This document shows, piece by piece, positions 2,110 through 56,764 of a stretch of 64,000 nt of DNA (positions within the stretch are counted from its first letter, which is position 1; every line of letters begins with the position of its first letter). The translations under genes were made by a program, and so were the position numbers. The notes under the pieces are model-generated. The model was not told the origin of the DNA and searched no databases. It saw nothing but the letters and a program-made list of their open reading frames with translations. The DNA is from Dryococelus australis (taxonomy: Eukaryota; Arthropoda; Insecta; Phasmatodea; Phasmatidae), in the NCBI GenBank assembly GCA_029891345.1, contig CM057002.1:61184777-61248776 (forward strand), written 5' to 3'.

Positions 2110-5100
2110 TTGCAGTTGCCATGTGGAATATATATTTCCGCCGACATGTTTGTAGTTGCCATGTTGAATATATATACCCGCCGACATGTTTGTAGTTCCC
2201 ACGCGGAATATATATACCCGCCGACATGTTTGTAGTTGCCACGTGGAATATATATACCCGCCGACATGTTTGTAGTTGCCACGTGTCATATATATATATA
2301 CCCGCCGACATGTTTGTAGTTGCCACGTGGAATATATATACCCGCCGACATGTCTGTAGTTGCCACGTGGAATATATATATATACCCGCCGACATGTTTG
2401 TAGTTGCCACGTGGAATATATATACCCGCCGACATGTTTGTAGTTGCCACGTGGAATATATAACCCGCCGACATGTTTGTAGTTGCCACGTGGAATATAT
2501 ATAAACGCCGACATGTCTGTAGTTGCCACGTGGAATATATATACCCGCCGACATGTTTGTAGTTGCCACGTGGAATATATATACCCGCCGACATGTCTGT
2601 AGTTGCCACGTGGAATATATATAAACGCCGACATGTTTGTAGTTGCCACGTGGAATATATATACCCGCCGACATGTTTGTAGTTGCCACGTGGAATATAT
2701 ATACCCGCCGACATGTTTGTAGTTGCCACGTGGAATATTATATACCCGCCGACATGTCTGTAGTTGCCACGTGGAATATATATACCCGCCGACATGTTTG
2801 TAGTTCCCACGTGGAATATATATACCCGCCGACATGTCTGTAGTTGCCACGTGGAATATATATAACCCGCCGACATGTTTGTAGTTGCCACGTGGATATA
2901 TATATATACCCGCCGACATGTTTGTAGTTGCCACGTGGAATATATATATAACCCGCCGACATGTTTGTAGTTGCCACGTGGAATATATATACCGCGACAT
3001 GTTATTCACTAATATATATAACCCGCCGACATGTTTGTAGTTGCCACGTGGAAATATATATACCCGCCGACATGTTTGTAGTTGCCACGTGGAATATATA
3101 TATAACCCCGACATGTTTAGTAGTTCACTGAATATATATACCCGCCGACATGTTTGTAGTTGCCACGGGAATATATATATACCCGCCGACATGTTTGTAG
3201 TTGCCACGTGGAATAATATATATACCCGCCGACATGTTTGTAGTTGCCACGTGGAATATATATACCCGCCGACATGTTTGTAGTTGCCACGTGGAATATA
3301 TATACCCGCCGACATGTCTGTAGTTGCCACGTGGAATATATAATACCCGCCGACATGTTTGTAGTTGCCACGTGGAATAATATACCCGCCGACATGTCTG
3401 TAGTTGCCACGTGGAATATATATATACCCGCCGACATGTTTGTAGTTGCCACGTGGAATATATATACCCGCCGACATGTTTGTAGTTGCCAAGTGGAATA
3501 ATATATATATATATATTACCCGCCGACATGTTTGTAGTTGCCACGTGGAATATATATACCCGCCGACATGTTTGTAGTTGCCACGTGGAATATATATATA
3601 CCCGCCGACATGTTTGTAGTTGCCACGTGGAATATATATACCCGCCGACATGTTTGTAGTTGCCACGTGGAATAATATATACCCGCCGACATGTTTGTAG
3701 TTCCCACGCGGAATATATATAACCCGCCGACATGTTTGTAGTTGCCACGTGGAATATATATAAACCGCCGACATGTTTGTAGTTGCCACGTGGAATATAT
3801 ATACCCGCCGACATGTTTGTAGTTGCCACGTGGAATATATATACCCGCCGACATGTTTGTAGTTGCCACGTGATATATAATATTACCCGCCGACATGTTT
3901 GTAGTTGCCACGTGGAATATATATACCCGCCGACATGTCTGTAGTTGCCCACGTGGAATATATATATACCCGCCGACATGTTTGTAGTTGCCACGTGAAT
4001 ATATATACCCGCCGACATGTTGTAGTTGCCACGTGGAATTATAATACCCGCCGACATGTCTGTAGTTGCCACGTGGAATATATATATACCCGCCGACATG
4101 TTTGTAGTTGCCACGCTGGAATATATATACCCGCCGACATGTTGTAGTTGCCACGTGGAATATATATATACCCGCCGACATGTTTGTAGTTGCCACGTGG
4201 AATATATATATACCCGCCGACATGTTTGTAGTTGCCAAGTGGAATATATAATATATATATATACCCGCCGACATGTTTGTAGTTGCCACGTGGAATATAT
4301 ATATACCCGCCGACATGTTTGTAGTTGCCACGTGGAAAATATATACCCGCCGACATGTTTGTAGTTGCCACGTGGAATATATATACCTGCCGACATGTTT
4401 GCAGTTGCCACGTGGAATATATATATACCCGCCGACATGTTTGTAGTTCCACGCGGAATATATATATACCCGCCGACATGTTTGTAGTTCCCACGCGGAA
4501 TATATATACCCGCCGACATGTTTGTAGTTGCCACGTGGAATATTATACCCGCCGACATGTTTGTAGTTGCCACGTCAATATATATATACCCGCCGACATG
4601 TTTGTAGTTGCCACGTGAATTAAATATATACCCGCCGACATGTCTGTAGTTGCCACGTGGAAATATATATATACCCGCCGACATGTTTGTAGTTCCACGC
4701 GGAATATATATACCCCCGACATGTTTGTAGTTGCCACGTGGAATATAATACCCGCCGACATGTTTGTAGTTGCCACGTGGAATATAATATACCCGCCGAC
4801 ATGTTTGTAGTTGCCACGTGAATATATATACCCGCCGACATGTGTTAGTATTCCCACCGCGAATATATATACCCGCCGAAATGTTTGTAGTTGCCACGTG
4901 GAATTAATATAAACGCCGACATGTTTGTAGTTGCCACGGAATAATATATAAACGCCGACATTTTGTAGTTGCCACGCGGAAATATATACCGCCGACATGT
5001 TTGTAGTTGCCACGTGGAAAATATATACCCGCCGACATGTTTGTAGTTGCCACGTGGAATATATATACCTGCCGACATGTTTGCAGTTGCCACGTGGAAT

Positions 5101-5977
5101 ATATATATACCCGCCGACATGTTTGTAGTTCCCACGCGGAATATATATATACCCGCCGACATGTTTGTAGTTCCCACGCGGAATATATAATACCCCCGAC
5201 ATGTTTGTAGTTGCCACGTGGAATATATATACCCGCCGACATGTTTGTAGTTCCCACGCGGAATATATATACCCGCCGACATGTTTGCAGTTGCCACGTG
5301 GAATATATATACCCGCCGACATGTTTGTAGTTCCCACGCGGAATATATATACACGCCGACATGTTTGTAGTTGCCACTGTCATATATATACCCGCCGACA
5401 TGTTTAGTAGTTGCCACGTGGAATCTATATACCCGCCGACATGTTTGTAGTTGCCATGTGGAATATATATATACCCGCCGACATGTTTTAGTGAGTAAAT
5501 CCCGCGACATGATTCACGGGAATATTATATATAACTCCCCGACATGTTTGTAGTTGCCACGTGGAATAATATATACCCGCCGACATGTTTGTAGTTGCCA
5601 CGTGGAATATATATATAATACCCGCCGACATGTTTGTAGTTGCCAAGTGGAATATATATATATATATATATACCCGCCGACATGTTTGTAGTTGCCACGT
5701 GGAATATATATATACCCGCCGACATGTTTGTAGTTGCCACGGGAATATATATATACCCGCCGACATGTTTGTAGTTGCCACGCGGAATATATATACCCGC
5801 CGACATGTTTGTAGTTCCCACGTGGAATATATATACCCGCCGACATGTTTGTAGTTGCCACGTGATATATATATAACCCGCCGACATGTTTGCAGTTGCC
5901 ATGTGGAATATATATACCCGCCGACATGTTTGCAGTTGCCATGTGGAATCTATATACCCGCCGACAAGTTTGTAGAA
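2110..5977. repeat. 40-bp minisatellite array, about 97 units
   Basis: A head-to-tail repeat with a unit of about 40 bp fills this interval. Each unit reads CCCGCCGACATG, then TTTGTAGTTGC, then CACGTGG, then a TA run of variable length. Unit length varies from about 36 to 50 bp, mainly through the TA run. Common variants change TTTGTAG to TCTGTAG, or GCCACGTGG to CCCACGCGG. Degenerate units lie near 2996, 3112 and 5481. No minus-strand frame of the standard unit has a stop, which produces spurious open frames of 570 and 590 codons. The CACGTG core is a palindromic E-box-type site present in most units. Confidence 0.97.
4325..5220. repeat. higher-order duplication inside the minisatellite
   Basis: A run of distinctive unit variants at about 4325-4545 recurs in the same order at about 5007-5220, offset near 682 bp. 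The order is GTGGAAAATATATA, then the CCTGCCGAC variant, then TTTGCAG, then two CACGCGG units. This indicates block duplication rather than single-unit slippage. Confidence 0.7.
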
Positions 5978-31627: not shown

Positions 31628-31708
31628 ACACTCCGTATTTAGTTTAGTAAGCGCGGAACACAAAATAAGACAATTTCTCCTTTGACAATTTCTCCTAGAA
31701 CCGCTTAT

Positions 31709-31943
31709 AGACTGTTCACGGTAAAGTGAGCACTTTTGAGGCCCTAGTTACTTTTTCCTTTCAGCCAATGTTCATTCTTTATCCACTTTTAAAAATAAAT
31801 ATTACCACGCAAGTAATAAACACAGTGTGTATATTACACCGCACTCGGAAGTTAACGTCCAAGGTTAAAATAAAGTACATTTATTGACTATTATTCCAAA
31901 AGAAAGGGTTTCCACATGTGCTCACTTTACAGTGAATAGCATA
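31709..31943. mobile_element. short MITE, family B
   Basis: Ends are TAGACTGTTCACGGTAAAGT and the inverted GTGCTCACTTTACAGTGAAT. The body contains TTTTTCCTTTCAGCCA, ACACAGTGTGTATATTACAC and CGGAAGTTAACGTCC. These correspond in reverse to the element at 44.9-45.1 kb. Confidence 0.75.
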
Positions 31944-32274
31944 TAACTATAAAATACGTCACAGAGCATGATGCACCTACAAACACCAGCTAGCCACAAG
32001 TATGGCTAGTGTTACATATAGGTGTACGTAAAGTTGGTTGGCCATATCCTCCAACAGATCACGCCGTTGCCAGACATTTGTGGTACATCCGGCGAGTTCT
32101 GAGTGGGTATAACAAAAATTGAAGGCGTGGCGTAAGCAAAGTTCAACAGCAAATGAAAATGTCACCTCACATACACTGTTGGAAGGGACGATTCCAGTAA
32201 GTACATAATTTCACCCAGTATCGAAAATGTTTATCTTGAATTTCTTGAAAGTATTTTGCTACGAGGCCGATAAG
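31944..32274. other. unassigned intergenic DNA
   Basis: No gene recognised. It ends with CCGATAAG (32,267-32,274), the target duplicated by the next element. Confidence 0.4.
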
Positions 32275-40727: not shown

Positions 40728-41878
40728 TGAATCAGTTAGGAGGTGATCACATACGCCCTCCTGAAGATAGGACTCGTCTTGCCAGCCGTTTGTCACATGA
40801 ACGTTTCTGCCTTCTATCCTGCTGTGTTCGGAACCCACTTTTGAATAATCGTACTCTGCAACATTCGGATTCCTTTCTTGGTAAGTGTAGCTCACCTATA
40901 CTCGCATATCTCGATGATGCTGTAATATGCTTTGTACCTATTTGAAATACTGATATACAACGTTACGTGTGAAAACCTGCCCCGTCCTTAATTTTTGACC
41001 ACCAGTTTAGCTTCACCTAACATAATCATATAGACTAACCTATAATAAATAATATGCGAAAAATGTTTTTTTTTTTTTGTTTAAACTAACACAAAACTAC
41101 CTAGAATAATGTAATACGTGGTTTTGCGATTTAAGCTAAACTAACCTACCAAATACGAGAGTAAAAGTTTTTTTTTTTTTTTACAAAAAAGAAGCTTAAC
41201 GTAAAATAACAAAATCCGTTTCTAGCAGTTTACACCGGATTAACAGTACCAACGGCCATGTAGGTCCCCAGGCGTCCGTGAGAAACAAGCCGTGGAGGTT
41301 CTATCGTAGTAAGATGAGGCGAAAATACAGAAAGAGTTGATAATCGATCTGCTGCGCAAACTACCCTCTCGACTATCTCATTTGACTTTCGTGGGGAATG
41401 TATTCGCTCTGGTGAACATGGTAGAACGTAAAATCTGAACCGGTGGGGATAATGTACGCTGGGCCGGGGATTTAAGTGAGTATTTAGTAACTGGTAAACA
41501 TTAAATACCGTATAAAATGCGCTGAAAATGCGGTTCGCCGATTTACATGCCTAGTGAGAAGTGCTGACTTAAAAGTGTTAATTTAATTACTTCTTCAAAG
41601 CATGCACCGACCGTAAATTTTTTAACGGTGTCGATTATTTATGAATGATGTTTAGTTAAGGGAGTTAATTAAATTGTCTTATATATACTCAAGGTAGTTA
41701 TAGAGTCATAATTTTAAGAGTAAACGCCCTTTGCCTATTCAGACCCAGTGTACAAAGATGTGTACATTACGCACGTGTAGGTAATTTTTAGTATGTACTG
41801 CTAATTGTGAAGCTCAATGACCAGTGATCTTACCTGTGAATAAATTATTAGCAAAACCCTCTTACTGATTGAAGTCAT
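40728..41878. other. unassigned intergenic DNA
   Basis: No gene recognised. It contains two T-runs near 41,065 and 41,170. Confidence 0.45.
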
Positions 41879-42194
41879 AATTGGTTCACATAATTGTAGT
41901 CGAACATGAAGGTAGCCTACAGCTAATTGTAGTCGAACATGAAGGTAGCATACAGCTAATTGGTTCACATAATTGTAGTCGAACATGAAGGTAGCCTACA
42001 GCTAATTGTAGTCGAACATGAAGGTAGCCTACAGCTAATTGGTTCACATAATTGTAGTCGAACATGAAGGTAGCCTACAGCTAATTGGTTCACATAATTG
42101 TAGTCGAACATGAAGGTAGCCTACAGCTAATTGTAGTCGAACATGAAGGTAGCCTACAGCTAATTGTAGTCGAACATGAAGGTAGCCTACAGCT
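41879..42194. repeat. composite 33-bp plus 13-bp tandem repeat
   Basis: Eight copies of a 33-bp unit (AATTGTAGTCGAACATGAAG and onward to CCTACAGCT) are interspersed with four copies of the 13-mer AATTGGTTCACAT. The order is 13, 33, 33, 13, 33, 33, 13, 33, 13, 33, 33, 33. Both units begin AATTG. Copies are almost identical, so the array is young. Confidence 0.97.
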
Positions 42195-42548
42195 AATTGA
42201 TTGACAACGAAACAAGTGTTGTGTCGCCTTAAGTACAGCACGCATCATAATATTTTTGTTTGCAACACCTGAAATCGTAAATTTAAATGGGTCTGAATAG
42301 ATTAATTATTTCACAGGAAATTTTCATAATCGTGTTACTGATGAATAGTTTTATAATTATTTTCAAACTAATAATAACAATAGGCCTATTTGGTTCGACA
42401 CATCTAGTCGGTGTGTACATATATTAAAAGAATATTTTATAATCGTATTTCTAGCGGTACTTTCATAAATATTTGAAAACTAAAGAACAATATGAAAACA
42501 CACTGATGTGGTTTCACAGTCGCTGTGCACATGTATCACAGTATACGT

Positions 42549-43545
42549 AAAGGGTTGCCCAATTCGCTGGTTCAATGACCTGTAGGCTGGACTCCACAGT
42601 TCTACCTACAATATAGCAAATGTCAAATACTCATTGATCGCGTGCTGTCGCAGTGGATGGCGATCATTTGGCCTGCACTTTGTTTCATTCATTCATTTAT
42701 TCATTTTATTCATCCAAATAATCATACATAATAGTGCAGGACATATCAAATTTGGTTTAACAACAAAACATATATATATATATATGCGCAAGTTTTTTTA
42801 CAAGAAAAACATATAAACTGAACTTAACTAATTTTAATAGAATTCACAAAGTACTTTAAATACAACCTAACTATATTTAAACTATATAATGTATTAAAAA
42901 CAGCCATTCTATTCATTAAAATATTCAGCTGTTGTGTAATAATATTTTCAAATTAGAAAATTGAAAACTCTTTGTTTAAATATTTTCAGATTCTTTAAAT
43001 ATTTGAATTTTTTTGGTAATTTATTTAAAAAATCCTACCTCTTTTAACATGGACGGCATTATAGGTAACTGTGTGTGTATTTGCTTAATATATACAAGTT
43101 TTTTTCCGTCGAGTATCATGTGCATGGATCTGTTAATTTAGAGTAAAAGAATTATGCATGTTTTTCCAAAACTCATATAGCCGTGTTATAAATGCAAATT
43201 CAAGTTACAGTAAGAATGTTCTCATCACTGTTGATTCAGGATTATTCTGATGGATCGTTTTTTGTAAAATGAACATTGCGTTCGGTTCACTAACGTTATG
43301 TCCCCAGAGAATTTTGCCATAAGTGATTAAAGAATAAAAATAAGCATAGTAGGCAGACGTTAGACATTTCACGCTACATTTGGCAGGAAGTTAAGTATTA
43401 TTGGCTCAAGTTTCTCCAGGGAGTGTTAAATAACGTGTGGGCCAAACGCGAACATGACACAAAACAAAGGTACGAGTATTTGTATTCTAGCTTCACTCGA
43501 GCTACACTCGATCTGAATCCGCGCATTCTTATATATCTGTACGTA
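42549..43545. mobile_element. hAT-like MITE, family C2, split by a LINE insertion
   Basis: The left part has AATTCGCTGGTTCAATGACC, TGTAGGCTGG, and GTCGCAGTGGATGGCGATCA. The right part resumes near 43,395 with TTATTGGCTCAAGTTTCTCC and AGTGTTAAATAACGTG, and ends near TGAATCCGCGCATTC. Both halves follow the order of the complete copy at 56,298-56,568. The precise ends are decayed. Confidence 0.65.
42685..43395 (-). pseudogene. LINE 3' end (C-terminal reverse transcriptase region)
   Basis: On the minus strand, from about 43,395, the frame reads CLTSAYYAYFYSLITYGKIL followed by WGHNVSEPNA and FILQK, a conserved segment C-terminal to the LINE catalytic core. Further on, with stops and frameshifts, come IHAHDTRRKK, a KRGRIFLNKLPKKFK segment and LKIFKQRVFNF, all typical of the domain's end. 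The element ends in a TGAA/ATGA-rich tail at about 42,685-42,715. It is 5'-truncated and sits inside a family C2 MITE. It may belong to the same LINE group as 1-450. Confidence 0.8.
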
Positions 43546-43574
43546 CACGTATTGCAAGGAAGGTCGTACGTCCG

Positions 43575-44900
43575 GTAATGTGGAGAGCAAGGCTCGGTGC
43601 CCAATGCTGTCAGCGTCTTTATTATAGGCTATTCAAGGTAATGTGGAGAGCAAGGCTCGGTGCCCAATGCTGTCAGCGTCTTTATTATAGGCTATTCAAG
43701 GTAATGTGGAGAGCAAGGCTCGGTGCCCAATGCTGTCAGCGTCTTTATTATAGGCTATTCAAGGTAATGTGGAGAGCAAGGCTCGGTGCCCAATGCTGTC
43801 AGCGTCTTTATTATAGGCTATTCAAGGTAACGTGGAGAGCAAGGCTCGGTGCCCAATGCTGTCAGCGTCTTTATTATAGGCTATTCAAGGTAACGTGGAG
43901 AGCAAGGCTCGGTGCCCAATGCTGTCAGCGTCTTTATTATAGGCTATTCAAGGTAACGTGGAGAGCAAGGCTCGGTGCCCAATGCTGTCAGCGTCTTTAT
44001 TATAGGCTATTCAAGGTAACGTGGAGAGTAAGGCTCGGTGCCCAATGCTGTCAGCGTCTTTATTATAGGCTATTCAAGGTAACGTGGAGAGCAAGGCTCG
44101 GTGCCCAATGCTGTCAGCGTCTTTATTATAGGCTATTCAAGGTAACGTGGAGAGCAAGGCTCGGTGCCCAATGCTGTCAGCGTCTTTATTATAGGCTATT
44201 CAAGGTAACGTGGAGAGCAAGGCTCGGTGCCCAATGCTTTCAGCGTCTTTATTATAGGCTATTCAAGGTAACGTGGAGAGCAAGGCTCGGTGCCCAATGC
44301 TGTCAGCGTCTTTATTATAGGCTATTCAAGGTAATGTGGAGAGCAAGGCTCGGTGCCCAATGCTGTCAGCGTCTTTATTATAGGCTATTCAAGGTAACGT
44401 GGAGAGTAAGGCTCGGTGCCCAATGCTGTCAGCGTCTTTATTATAGGCTATTCAAGGTAACGTGGAGAGCAAGGCTCGGTGCCCAATGCTGTCAGCGTCT
44501 TTATTATAGGCTATTCAAGGTAACGTGGAGAGCAAGGCTCGGTGCCCAATGCTGTCAGCGTCTTTATTATAGGCTATTCAAGGTAACGTGGAGAGCAAGG
44601 CTCGGTGCCCAATGCTGTCAGCGTCTTTATTATAGGCTATTCAAGGTAACGTGGAGAGCAAGGCTCGGTGCCCAATGCTGTCAGCGTCTTTATTATAGGC
44701 TATTCAAGGTAACGTGGAGAGCAAGGCTCGGTGCCCAATGCTGTCAGCGTCTTTATTATAGGATATTCAAGGTAATGTGGAGAGCAAGGCTTGGTGCCCA
44801 ATGCTGTCAGCGTCTTTATTATAGGCTATTCAAGGTAATGTGGAGAGCAAGGCTTGGTGCCCAATGCTGTCAGCGTCTTTATTATAGGCTATTCAAGGTA
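43575..44900. repeat. 63-bp tandem repeat, 21 copies, containing a MITE end
   Basis: The unit is exactly 63 bp: GGTAAYGTGGAGAGCAAGGC, then TCGGTGCCCAATGCTGTCAG, then CGTCTTTATTATAGGCTATTCAA. Units differ at very few positions. Because 63 is divisible by three, the plus strand stays open for 461 codons, which I regard as an artefact. The last part (TATAGGCTATTCAAGGTA) is the terminus of the family A/B MITE. The array runs directly into a family B body at 44,901. Confidence 0.97.
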
Positions 44901-45110
44901 GAATGTGCACTTTTGAAAGCCCTCTCAATTGGAATAATAGTCGATAAATATATTTTATTTTAGTCCTAGACGCTAACTTCCGAGTACGGTGGAATATACA
45001 CACTGTATTTATTACTTACCTTGCAATATATATTTACAAATATGGTTACAGGATTAAAAATGGCTGAAAGGTAAAAGTAACAAATGTGCTCACTTTGCCG
45101 TGAAAGGCAT
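44884..45110. mobile_element. short MITE, family B, next to the 63-bp array
   Basis: The element starts TAGGCTATTCAAGGTAGAAT and GTGCACTTTTGAAAGCCC, and ends ATGTGCTCACTTTGCCGTGA followed by AAGGCA. The interior includes TTGGAATAATAGTCGATAAA, CTAACTTCCGAG and AAAAATGGCTGAAAGG. Its left terminus is the last copy of the sequence repeated 21 times to its left. Confidence 0.8.
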
Positions 45111-45266
45111 ATGCCTGTAGGTAATGCATTCATAAATGCAAACATTGCTAAACACTGATTTATGTTGAGCATGGTTCCCATTACGGAAAACCAAGCCTAG
45201 AGTTCATTGGCACCGAAACAAGTGTGTCAGCTGAATCTCAGTACGGATCAAAATATCACTTATTTG

Positions 45267-56050: not shown

Positions 56051-56740
56051 ATAGTCTATTCGCGGTTTATTCACACTTTTTGAATCAAACCTTTGAAAAA
56101 TAACCCATGTGACACGTGTTTGGGTTTTTCTTTAATACAACATGTATCACAAGCGTTTTGTATTTGTGTTAACGTAAAAGTAAACTTTTGGTTAACTTGA
56201 ACTTTTAATCATATTAAAACTATTAATTATATTTAAACGTCTAATTAATATGAATAAAACCAAAGACAAAATACATGTGTTGGTAATTCCTAGTAAGTGG
56301 AGACCGGAAAATTCGCGAGTTCATTAACCTGTAGTCTAGACTGCACAGTATTGTGTACGATAACGCAGATTAAATCAATTATTGGTTGCTTGCTCTCACA
56401 GTGGAAGACGATAGTTGGGTCTGTGTTTTGTAGCGTGTTTCTTATTGGTTCAGGGTTCTTCAGGAAGTGATAAATAACGCATGAAGTAATTGCAATAATA
56501 ACGTGAACAAACGAGTTTTATAATTCAAGCTTGACCCGAAATGAATCCGTGAATTCTTCAGGTCTCTACTAGTAAGAAATTGCTATAATACATAAAATAA
56601 TTAAAGTGAGTGCGCACGAATACGGCGCGTTGTCTCTTTGGTGTAATTTTCTAGACTCGATTAGATGTTGTTTCCACGAGGTGGTGCGTGGGATAGCCTG
56701 AAAGTAGAACTATTACTGGAAAGTAGAACTATTACTGGAA
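56051..56740. mobile_element. TA-flanked MITE, family D, copy 2, with nested C2
   Basis: It starts TAGTCTATTCGCGGTTTATT and follows copy 1 to TGGTAATTCCTAGTAAG, where a C2 element is inserted, then resumes with AAATTGCTATAATA. The right terminus is lost. Instead, AAAGTAGAACTATTACTGG is tandemly duplicated at 56,701-56,738. Confidence 0.75.
56298..56568. mobile_element. hAT-like MITE, family C2, complete (271 bp)
   Basis: It starts TGGAGACCGGAAAATTCGCG and ends with the inverted GTGAATTCTTCAGGTCTCTA. The flanks are identical 8-mers, CTAGTAAG, at 56,290-56,297 and 56,569-56,576. The unoccupied counterpart CCTAGTAATAAA exists in family D copy 1 near 49,066. Confidence 0.93.
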
Positions 56741-56764
56741 AGCAACACATCAGTACGTCGTTTA

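Follow-up and report, generated by a model that had tools for sequence, protein, structure and literature searches.

A 63-bp minisatellite across the edge of a MITE in Dryococelus australis, and a series of duplications at MITE edges in the same genome

We analysed a 64,000-nucleotide stretch of contig CM057002.1 of Dryococelus australis (the window, whose first letter is position 1) and found that a minisatellite of 21 units, each of exactly 63 bp, spans the junction between single-copy flanking DNA and the left end of a MITE. The four-base word GGTA stands at both ends of the array, and duplications at MITE edges, graded in copy number, occur at other loci in the genome. The array was very probably born by a duplication between short direct repeats across the edge of the MITE, and then expanded by homology between its own units. 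We regard the locus as one member of a series at MITE edges, produced by an ordinary mechanism, and the interest lies in this series of births rather than in a new kind of element.

Table 1. Features of the locus (window positions) and the edge duplications read in the genome (contigs C2 to C15)
Feature	Position	Strand	Remarks
63-bp array	43574..44896	+	Each unit joins 47 bp of left flank to bases 1-16 of the MITE TIR
Family-B MITE, single copy, leaving the array	44885..45114, ends approximate	+	Alignment with 29 relatives
Left TIR, ~35 bp	44885..44919	+	The repeat unit takes in bases 1-16 only
GGTA, flank copy (putative left birth breakpoint)	43574..43577	+	CC before the flank GGTA, AA before the MITE GGTA
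GGTA, MITE copy (putative right birth breakpoint)	44897..44900	+	
Retained pre-insertion flank	43574..43622	+	Present in all units; no other genome match listed (40 of 48 candidates scored)
Unamplified family-B copy, for comparison	31706..31946	.	Same window
Edge duplications, C2	12.39, 44.82, 92.39 Mb		Reservations: spacer absent from flank (44.82), flank resembles a decayed unit (92.39)
Edge duplications, C3, C5, C15	C3 21.58; C5 35.23; C15 87.21 Mb		Reservation: MITE body seen at neither edge (C3)
Edge duplications, C4	4.72, 7.26, 116.86 Mb		
Edge duplications, C6	16.30, 19.88, 199.15 Mb		16.30: two copies, shared word GCAT
Edge duplications, C10	61.23 (this locus), 117.78 Mb		
Edge duplications, C12	14.32, 21.44 Mb		Two copies each, shared words GAAAG (14.32) and CCTT (21.44)
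Edge duplications, C13	6.35, 90.88 Mb		Reservation: spacer is TA only (6.35); 90.88: two copies, shared word ATTTTTAAA
Edge duplications, C14	5.89, 8.07, 20.87 Mb		5.89: three copies, shared word ACTTTTGAG; reservation: edges not reached (20.87)

The array and the element at its edge

Tandem Repeats Finder (TRF) placed the array at 43,574-44,900, with a period of 63, 21.1 copies, 98% matches and no indels, and cutting at GGTA gave the 21 units of Table 1. These results confirm the initial annotation, which had described 21 units of 63 bp across a MITE junction; its division of the unit into ~45 bp of flank and ~18 bp of transposon end was right in spanning the junction and is corrected here to 47 bp plus 16 bp of a ~35-bp TIR. 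The phase of the unit is ambiguous across the GGTA common to flank and TIR, and the TIR portion per unit is 16-18 bp, less than half of the TIR. The array starts in unique flank (CC, GGTA, ATGTGG in unit 1), and at its other end the MITE (AA, GGTA, GAATGTGC) takes the place of a 22nd unit. The sequence TATAGGCTATTCAAGGTA occurs exactly at 20 of the 21 array places and with one mismatch at the remaining place, in unit 19; allowing up to three mismatches, it has 29 matches in the window against 0.03 expected. The last of the 21 TIR ends (44,883) is the MITE's own end.

Alignment with 29 relatives bore out the presence of a family-B MITE next to the array: the element is ~237 bp long, with TIRs of ~35 bp and a TA target, and at the level of the family it is short, has many similar copies and carries TIRs, as a MITE should. 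The family-B search listed 41 matches, with the best 40 of 5,177 first-look candidates scored. The local MITE differs from the majority of the relatives at 26 of 232 sites; the relatives themselves average 8.1% divergence from the family majority, a figure biased towards low divergence because they were picked as best matches. About 10 bp have been lost close to the right TIR of the local copy. Most of the 29 relatives have TA on either side, and the local copy has TA on the left and, as inferred from the alignment, TG on the right. The TA target alone suggests that the MITE belongs to the IS630-Tc1-mariner superfamily.

The 16-bp TIR word TAGGCTRTTCAMGGTA, common to several MITE families and to both of their ends, has 77,722 exact copies in 3.4 Gb. 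The TIR of the unit is distinguished by CAAGG in place of CACGG, a base that recurs in 2 of the 29 relatives aligned over their full length and in 1 of 29 aligned at the left end (sets that overlap in at least one copy); the left-end relative, L063, carries CAAGGTAG as well. This base may therefore predate amplification and have been present when the element inserted. An argument from the TIR base that the MITE had aged before the array grew is weakened accordingly, since other copies carry the same base and it is no proof of such ageing. Just inside the array boundary, at 44901-44906, three of six bases are substituted, two of them at sites invariant in the 29 full-length relatives; each of these two substituted bases occurs once among the 29 left-end relatives. 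Chance, a subfamily or mutagenic repair at a breakpoint could each account for them.

In the searches made, the flank half of the unit was found at this locus only. All 21 matches of the 47-bp part in the window lie inside the array, and the 47 bp are absent from the 29 aligned family-B relatives, whose flanks differ; the flank part is thus not a regular piece of family-B interior in these relatives, an alternative that the initial annotation had raised. In the genome search, in which 40 of 48 candidates were scored and common words were skipped, 51 bp of flank plus TA in the unit matched array units only, among 60 matches listed. The listed matches outside the array cover other parts of the flank, and we found no paralogue of the locus among them. 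A genome search with 426 bp of the array returned this locus alone (a single candidate scored), so that neither this search nor the flank search (40 of 48 scored) found an array of the unit at a place lacking a family A/B element. No array units lie on the far side of the MITE.

These observations support insertion of the MITE first and amplification of its junction later, as first proposed and as the simplest order of events: the unit was found nowhere else in these searches, and its 47-bp part is absent from the window outside the array. The opposite order, in which the MITE inserted into an array already in place, would also leave array and element touching, but every unit contains the MITE terminus, the window has no copy of the 47-bp part outside the array, and the order array, then MITE, is seen again at other loci; we consider it so improbable as to be negligible. 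It is very unlikely, too, that the arrays belong to the standard make-up of some element subfamily with foldback-like or Xstir-like tandem ends and were dispersed by transposition. Many arrays do have a MITE end in common, and elements with tandem repeats exist, going by excerpts on Tetris (PMC4079207) and Xmix/Xstir (PMC6004289). Against this, the spacers of the edge loci that we read differ from one another, no second locus of the 63-bp unit was found among the candidates scored, and the array lies outside the element and on one side only.

The units have a mean pairwise divergence of 1.6% and vary at five sites: position 6 (T in units 1-4, 13, 20 and 21), 15 (units 8 and 14), 22 (units 20 and 21), 36 (unit 11) and 56 (unit 19). 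The variant GAGAGTAAG is indeed found in units 8 and 14, from which block amplification had been suggested at first. This suggestion did not hold up: identity at a lag of six units is ordinary (P 0.53), and in tests of ten lags the units were more alike than shuffled ones at lag 1 only (P 0.0036, uncorrected). The pattern is thus better explained by growth from neighbouring units than by growth in six-unit blocks. Long tandem arrays are prone to mis-assembly, and the analysis covers a single genome from one individual. We nevertheless judge it very unlikely that the unit number or the array itself is an assembly artefact, in view of the definite order of the unit variants, the unique left flank, and the two- and three-copy cases elsewhere, which assemble easily.

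An open frame of 490 amino acids crosses the array on the + strand (43491-44963), one of six frames being open through the repeats. We rejected a coding reading, as a gene for a tandem-repeat protein, because 86.5% of random 63-mers keep an endlessly open frame and an open frame is thus expected for most units of this length. The unit folds no better than its shuffles, which leaves slippage driven by a unit hairpin unsupported, and a search of the 64-kb window against Rfam at gathering thresholds gave 0 matches. The array is probably without function, and we propose none for it. Recognition of its 21 ends by a transposase, considered in the initial annotation, is putative. Less than half of the TIR is present in each unit; arrays elsewhere with up to 38 bp of MITE end would suit a transposase better. 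We saw no sign of mobilisation of the array, and a second locus of the unit was not found in the searches.

The window contains further repeats: a 40-bp minisatellite of ~96 copies with many length variants (2110-5975), a composite array that can be read with a period of 33, 46, 79 or 125 (41878-42206), and a 19-bp tandem duplication (56700-56742) that stops ~20 bp left of the end of a family-A MITE (56,763).

Edge duplications across the genome

Three patterns were searched in the whole genome. Two direct TIR words 20-50 bp apart gave 239 matches (pattern 1), a version that also specified the following base and used shorter gaps gave 101 (pattern 2), and one for units whose TIR word changes earlier gave 45 (pattern 3); the reversed pattern gave 0 matches in each case. 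Among ~100 of the 239 and ~100 of the 101 matches of the first two patterns, we read by eye at least 21 MITE-edge duplications, this locus included and five with reservations (Table 1); the matches of pattern 1 that were covered end within one array on C4, and the census is a lower bound. Spacers differ between the loci, and unit numbers range from 2 to ~100 (2, 3, 5, 10, 35 and ~100 ends). The longest array, on C4, takes 102 steps of 63.5 bp from 4,724,039 to ~4,730,521 and leads into a family-A MITE with both ends.

Pattern 3 added eight candidates (seven arrays and one pair), and the three inner edges read among them all begin as a MITE. At some of the loci found with this pattern the TIR part is not shorter but differs in sequence, and five further single pairs were left out of the counts. 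Of 23 inner edges compared with a MITE reference set, 20 continue as MITE sequence beyond the TIR, the match at C14:8.07M being to a second MITE further in. The exceptions are C3:21.58M, C12:14.32M and C10:0.706M, the last two of which still show TIR sequence. At the first (L086, C3:21,577,400-21,579,000), 33-bp units carry MITE ends and no MITE body stands at either edge; the element may have been lost, or the array may have another origin.

A pair of TIR words can also mean that one MITE is nested in the edge of another, and exchange between homologous TIRs could then build an array. The distinction was made by eye: of 13 pair loci, seven look nested (L101, L102, L103, L105, L106, L107, L113) and six look like edge duplications (L104, L108-L112). 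One of the former, L103 (C2:59,712,150-59,712,600), seems to hold a family-B MITE within a family-A MITE whose left end occurs three times in a row, likely by exchange between homologous TIRs; at L107 the insertion follows the same CTTAAGATATA in another family-A copy. Such pairs and the three units in a row at L103 lend the nested origin some plausibility as an explanation of the array studied here. It is nonetheless highly improbable for this array, whose 47-bp spacer is not MITE sequence and had no other match when 40 of 48 candidates from the genome were scored.

We do not claim a general enrichment of minisatellites near MITEs: TRF on 58 MITE loci gave 39 rows with a period of 15 or more, few of them near MITE ends. 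In one of these neighbourhoods (L073, 1637-1924), a 57-bp array of 5.1 copies with 100% matches lies 40-50 bp outside a MITE left end and excludes that end.

Shared words, proposed origin and birth rate

We looked for a word shared between flank and TIR at the 18 loci that allowed a comparison of outer flank, unit junction and MITE, taking the best unit of each array; the three others of the 21 (C3:21.58M, C14:20.87M and C4:4.72M, the last with a decayed outer edge) were omitted. Eight of the 18 have an exact shared word of at least 4 bp, against 1.8% in a null in which 25 real MITE ends were joined bluntly, at random points, to their own flanks (binomial P 5e-10). The words are GGTA (this locus), GCAT, CCTT, AAAT and ATTT at 4 bp, GAAAG at 5 bp, and ATTTTTAAA and ACTTTTGAG at 9 bp. 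Loci with a single testable unit behave alike, with at least 4 bp in four of seven (P 4e-6), and when one mismatch is allowed per side 12 of the 18 loci reach 6 bp, against 8% in the null. Taken by itself, the GGTA of this locus is modest evidence (P ~0.02). The remaining ten loci fall below 4 bp: four give 0, 0, 2 and 3 bp, and six are unreadable (negative overlap) because edge units or flanks have changed.

The TIR part of the unit could be read at 16 of the 18 loci and is 16-38 bp there, at most about the length of the TIR. It is 12 bp at C5:2.36M, and the lowest values returned (6 and 11) come from unreadable edges. We dropped an apparent sharp cluster of breakpoints at 16-20 bp, whose lower bound the search pattern itself had imposed.

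In the origin that we favour, a non-autonomous MITE with a TA target would have landed beside single-copy DNA, its TIR and the flank 63 bp upstream having GGTA in common by chance. A replication or repair error between the two GGTA repeats (slippage, a template switch or microhomology-mediated joining of sister strands) would then have duplicated 63 bp, made up of 47 bp of flank and 16 bp of MITE end. The two copies would have provided 63 bp of homology for unequal exchange, slippage or conversion, raising the number to 21 similar units and leaving the body and right end of the MITE single. The enzymes and steps behind the first duplication and the later growth, and likewise the way in which the units spread, are inferred. 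Two-copy states at other loci may, by analogy, stand in for the unamplified ancestral allele. The low diversity of the array (1.6%) compared with the 11% separating the MITE from its family majority speaks for this sequence of events; against it stand the 10 of 18 loci with an exact shared word under 4 bp, and the array at C3:21.58M, which has MITE ends and a MITE body at neither edge.

With the ancestral sequence gone, the first duplication of a minisatellite can seldom be seen. At MITE edges one half of the founding junction is known from many copies of the element and the other is kept in the outermost flank. This allows the junction to be reconstructed, here for a dozen loci or more whose arrays range from 2 to ~100 units. 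The short-direct-repeat model thereby becomes testable locus by locus within one genome, and the edge loci form a set of candidate VNTR markers.

MITE termini might, more tentatively, be preferred birthplaces of minisatellites, at which 3' ends in the TIR re-prime on a short word in the flank. The birth rate could be raised if a TIR hairpin stalls replication, or a transposase nicks the end, and repair proceeds by template switching. Relative to the interior of the elements the excess is about tenfold, with 18 edge loci per 77,722 TIR words and one interior locus per 41,839 copies (binomial P 0.003, Fisher 0.006, with equal pattern geometry and the 18 loci recounted). Eighteen of the 21 edge loci fit the control geometry, three of them with reservations; restricting the comparison to the other 15 gives binomial P 0.010 and Fisher 0.016. 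The edge search covered units with at least 11 bp of TIR, and the interior controls were two words only, one with no tandem locus among 10,511 copies and one with a single locus among 31,328. The confinement of the TIR part to about one TIR length also fits a hot spot.

The comparison with background sequence points the other way. In 243 kb not chosen for tandem repeats, tandem 16-mers occur at ~four times the MITE-end rate by a crude count with rows merged by hand; the raw founder rate of 0.0048 per position, in which one long array is split into many rows, falls to ~0.001 after hand-merging. Background positions have had longer to gather arrays than MITE ends. MITE ends may be ordinary and MITE interiors low, and the unit itself, as noted, shows no unusual folding. 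With the background count standing where it does, we think a hot spot possible but doubtful. If it is real, each MITE burst would seed new VNTR loci by the tens, every one distinct, and the genome keeps a readable series from first duplication to ~100 copies. The sole interior array found, from the word with 31,328 copies, sits in a MITE copy that also has an edge array, a hint of local instability: at C10:117,775,176-117,775,958 (L091/G000), a single family-A MITE carries 10 ends in a 38-bp edge array together with a 59-bp array in its interior.

Comparison with known systems

We found no report of MITE-edge minisatellites as a class among the titles and abstract openings that searches of open-licence literature listed, and the comparisons that follow draw on excerpts of the cited papers. 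Xmix/Xstir, miDNA4 and the Tetris TIR-220 (PMC6004289, PMC9659126, PMC12628747, PMC4079207) likewise have tandem repeats derived from MITE or foldback sequence. In these excerpts the repeats lie inside the element, whereas ours cross its outer edge and were found at one locus; a MITE-borne satellite sits between the TIRs and is dispersed with its element, and the present array is outside and on one side. The tandem CMITE arrays of corals (PMC2872659), for which the excerpt gives replication slippage as the authors' proposal, resemble ours in that a MITE and intervening sequence are repeated together, but there CMITE elements are repeated and here only one end of the MITE (16 bp of it at this locus). 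Helitron arrays, as excerpted (PMC12628747), share the configuration of many 5' ends with a single 3' end; they are linked to rolling-circle replication, in contrast to the host flank in the unit and the short shared word at the junction that we observe.

Among the human tandem repeats derived from transposable elements, the excerpted account counts 136 cases of a partial Alu repeated beside a full or near-full Alu (PMC3389668). There, as here, part of an element is repeated beside one complete element; the difference is that our unit includes host flank and that the element part is the end of a DNA transposon. The best account is a model credited to Haber and Louis (1998) in excerpts of PMC6947457 and PMC3389668, by which minisatellites start at short flanking direct repeats of 5-10 bp; the excerpt of the latter adds that this model together with one other may account for only 6% of human TE-derived tandem repeat starts (PMC3389668). 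Our locus agrees with it in being a one-locus array of units of tens of base pairs, in the short direct repeat that bounds the unit, and in the course that the model gives to events, with slippage or unequal exchange first and growth then driven by homology between units. The GGTA that bounds the founding unit on either side is one base pair short of the model's 5-10 bp; the shared word is 4 bp here and 0-9 bp at the 12 readable loci of the 18. A further departure from the model, as excerpted, is that one of the two repeats was here supplied by the insertion of a transposon.
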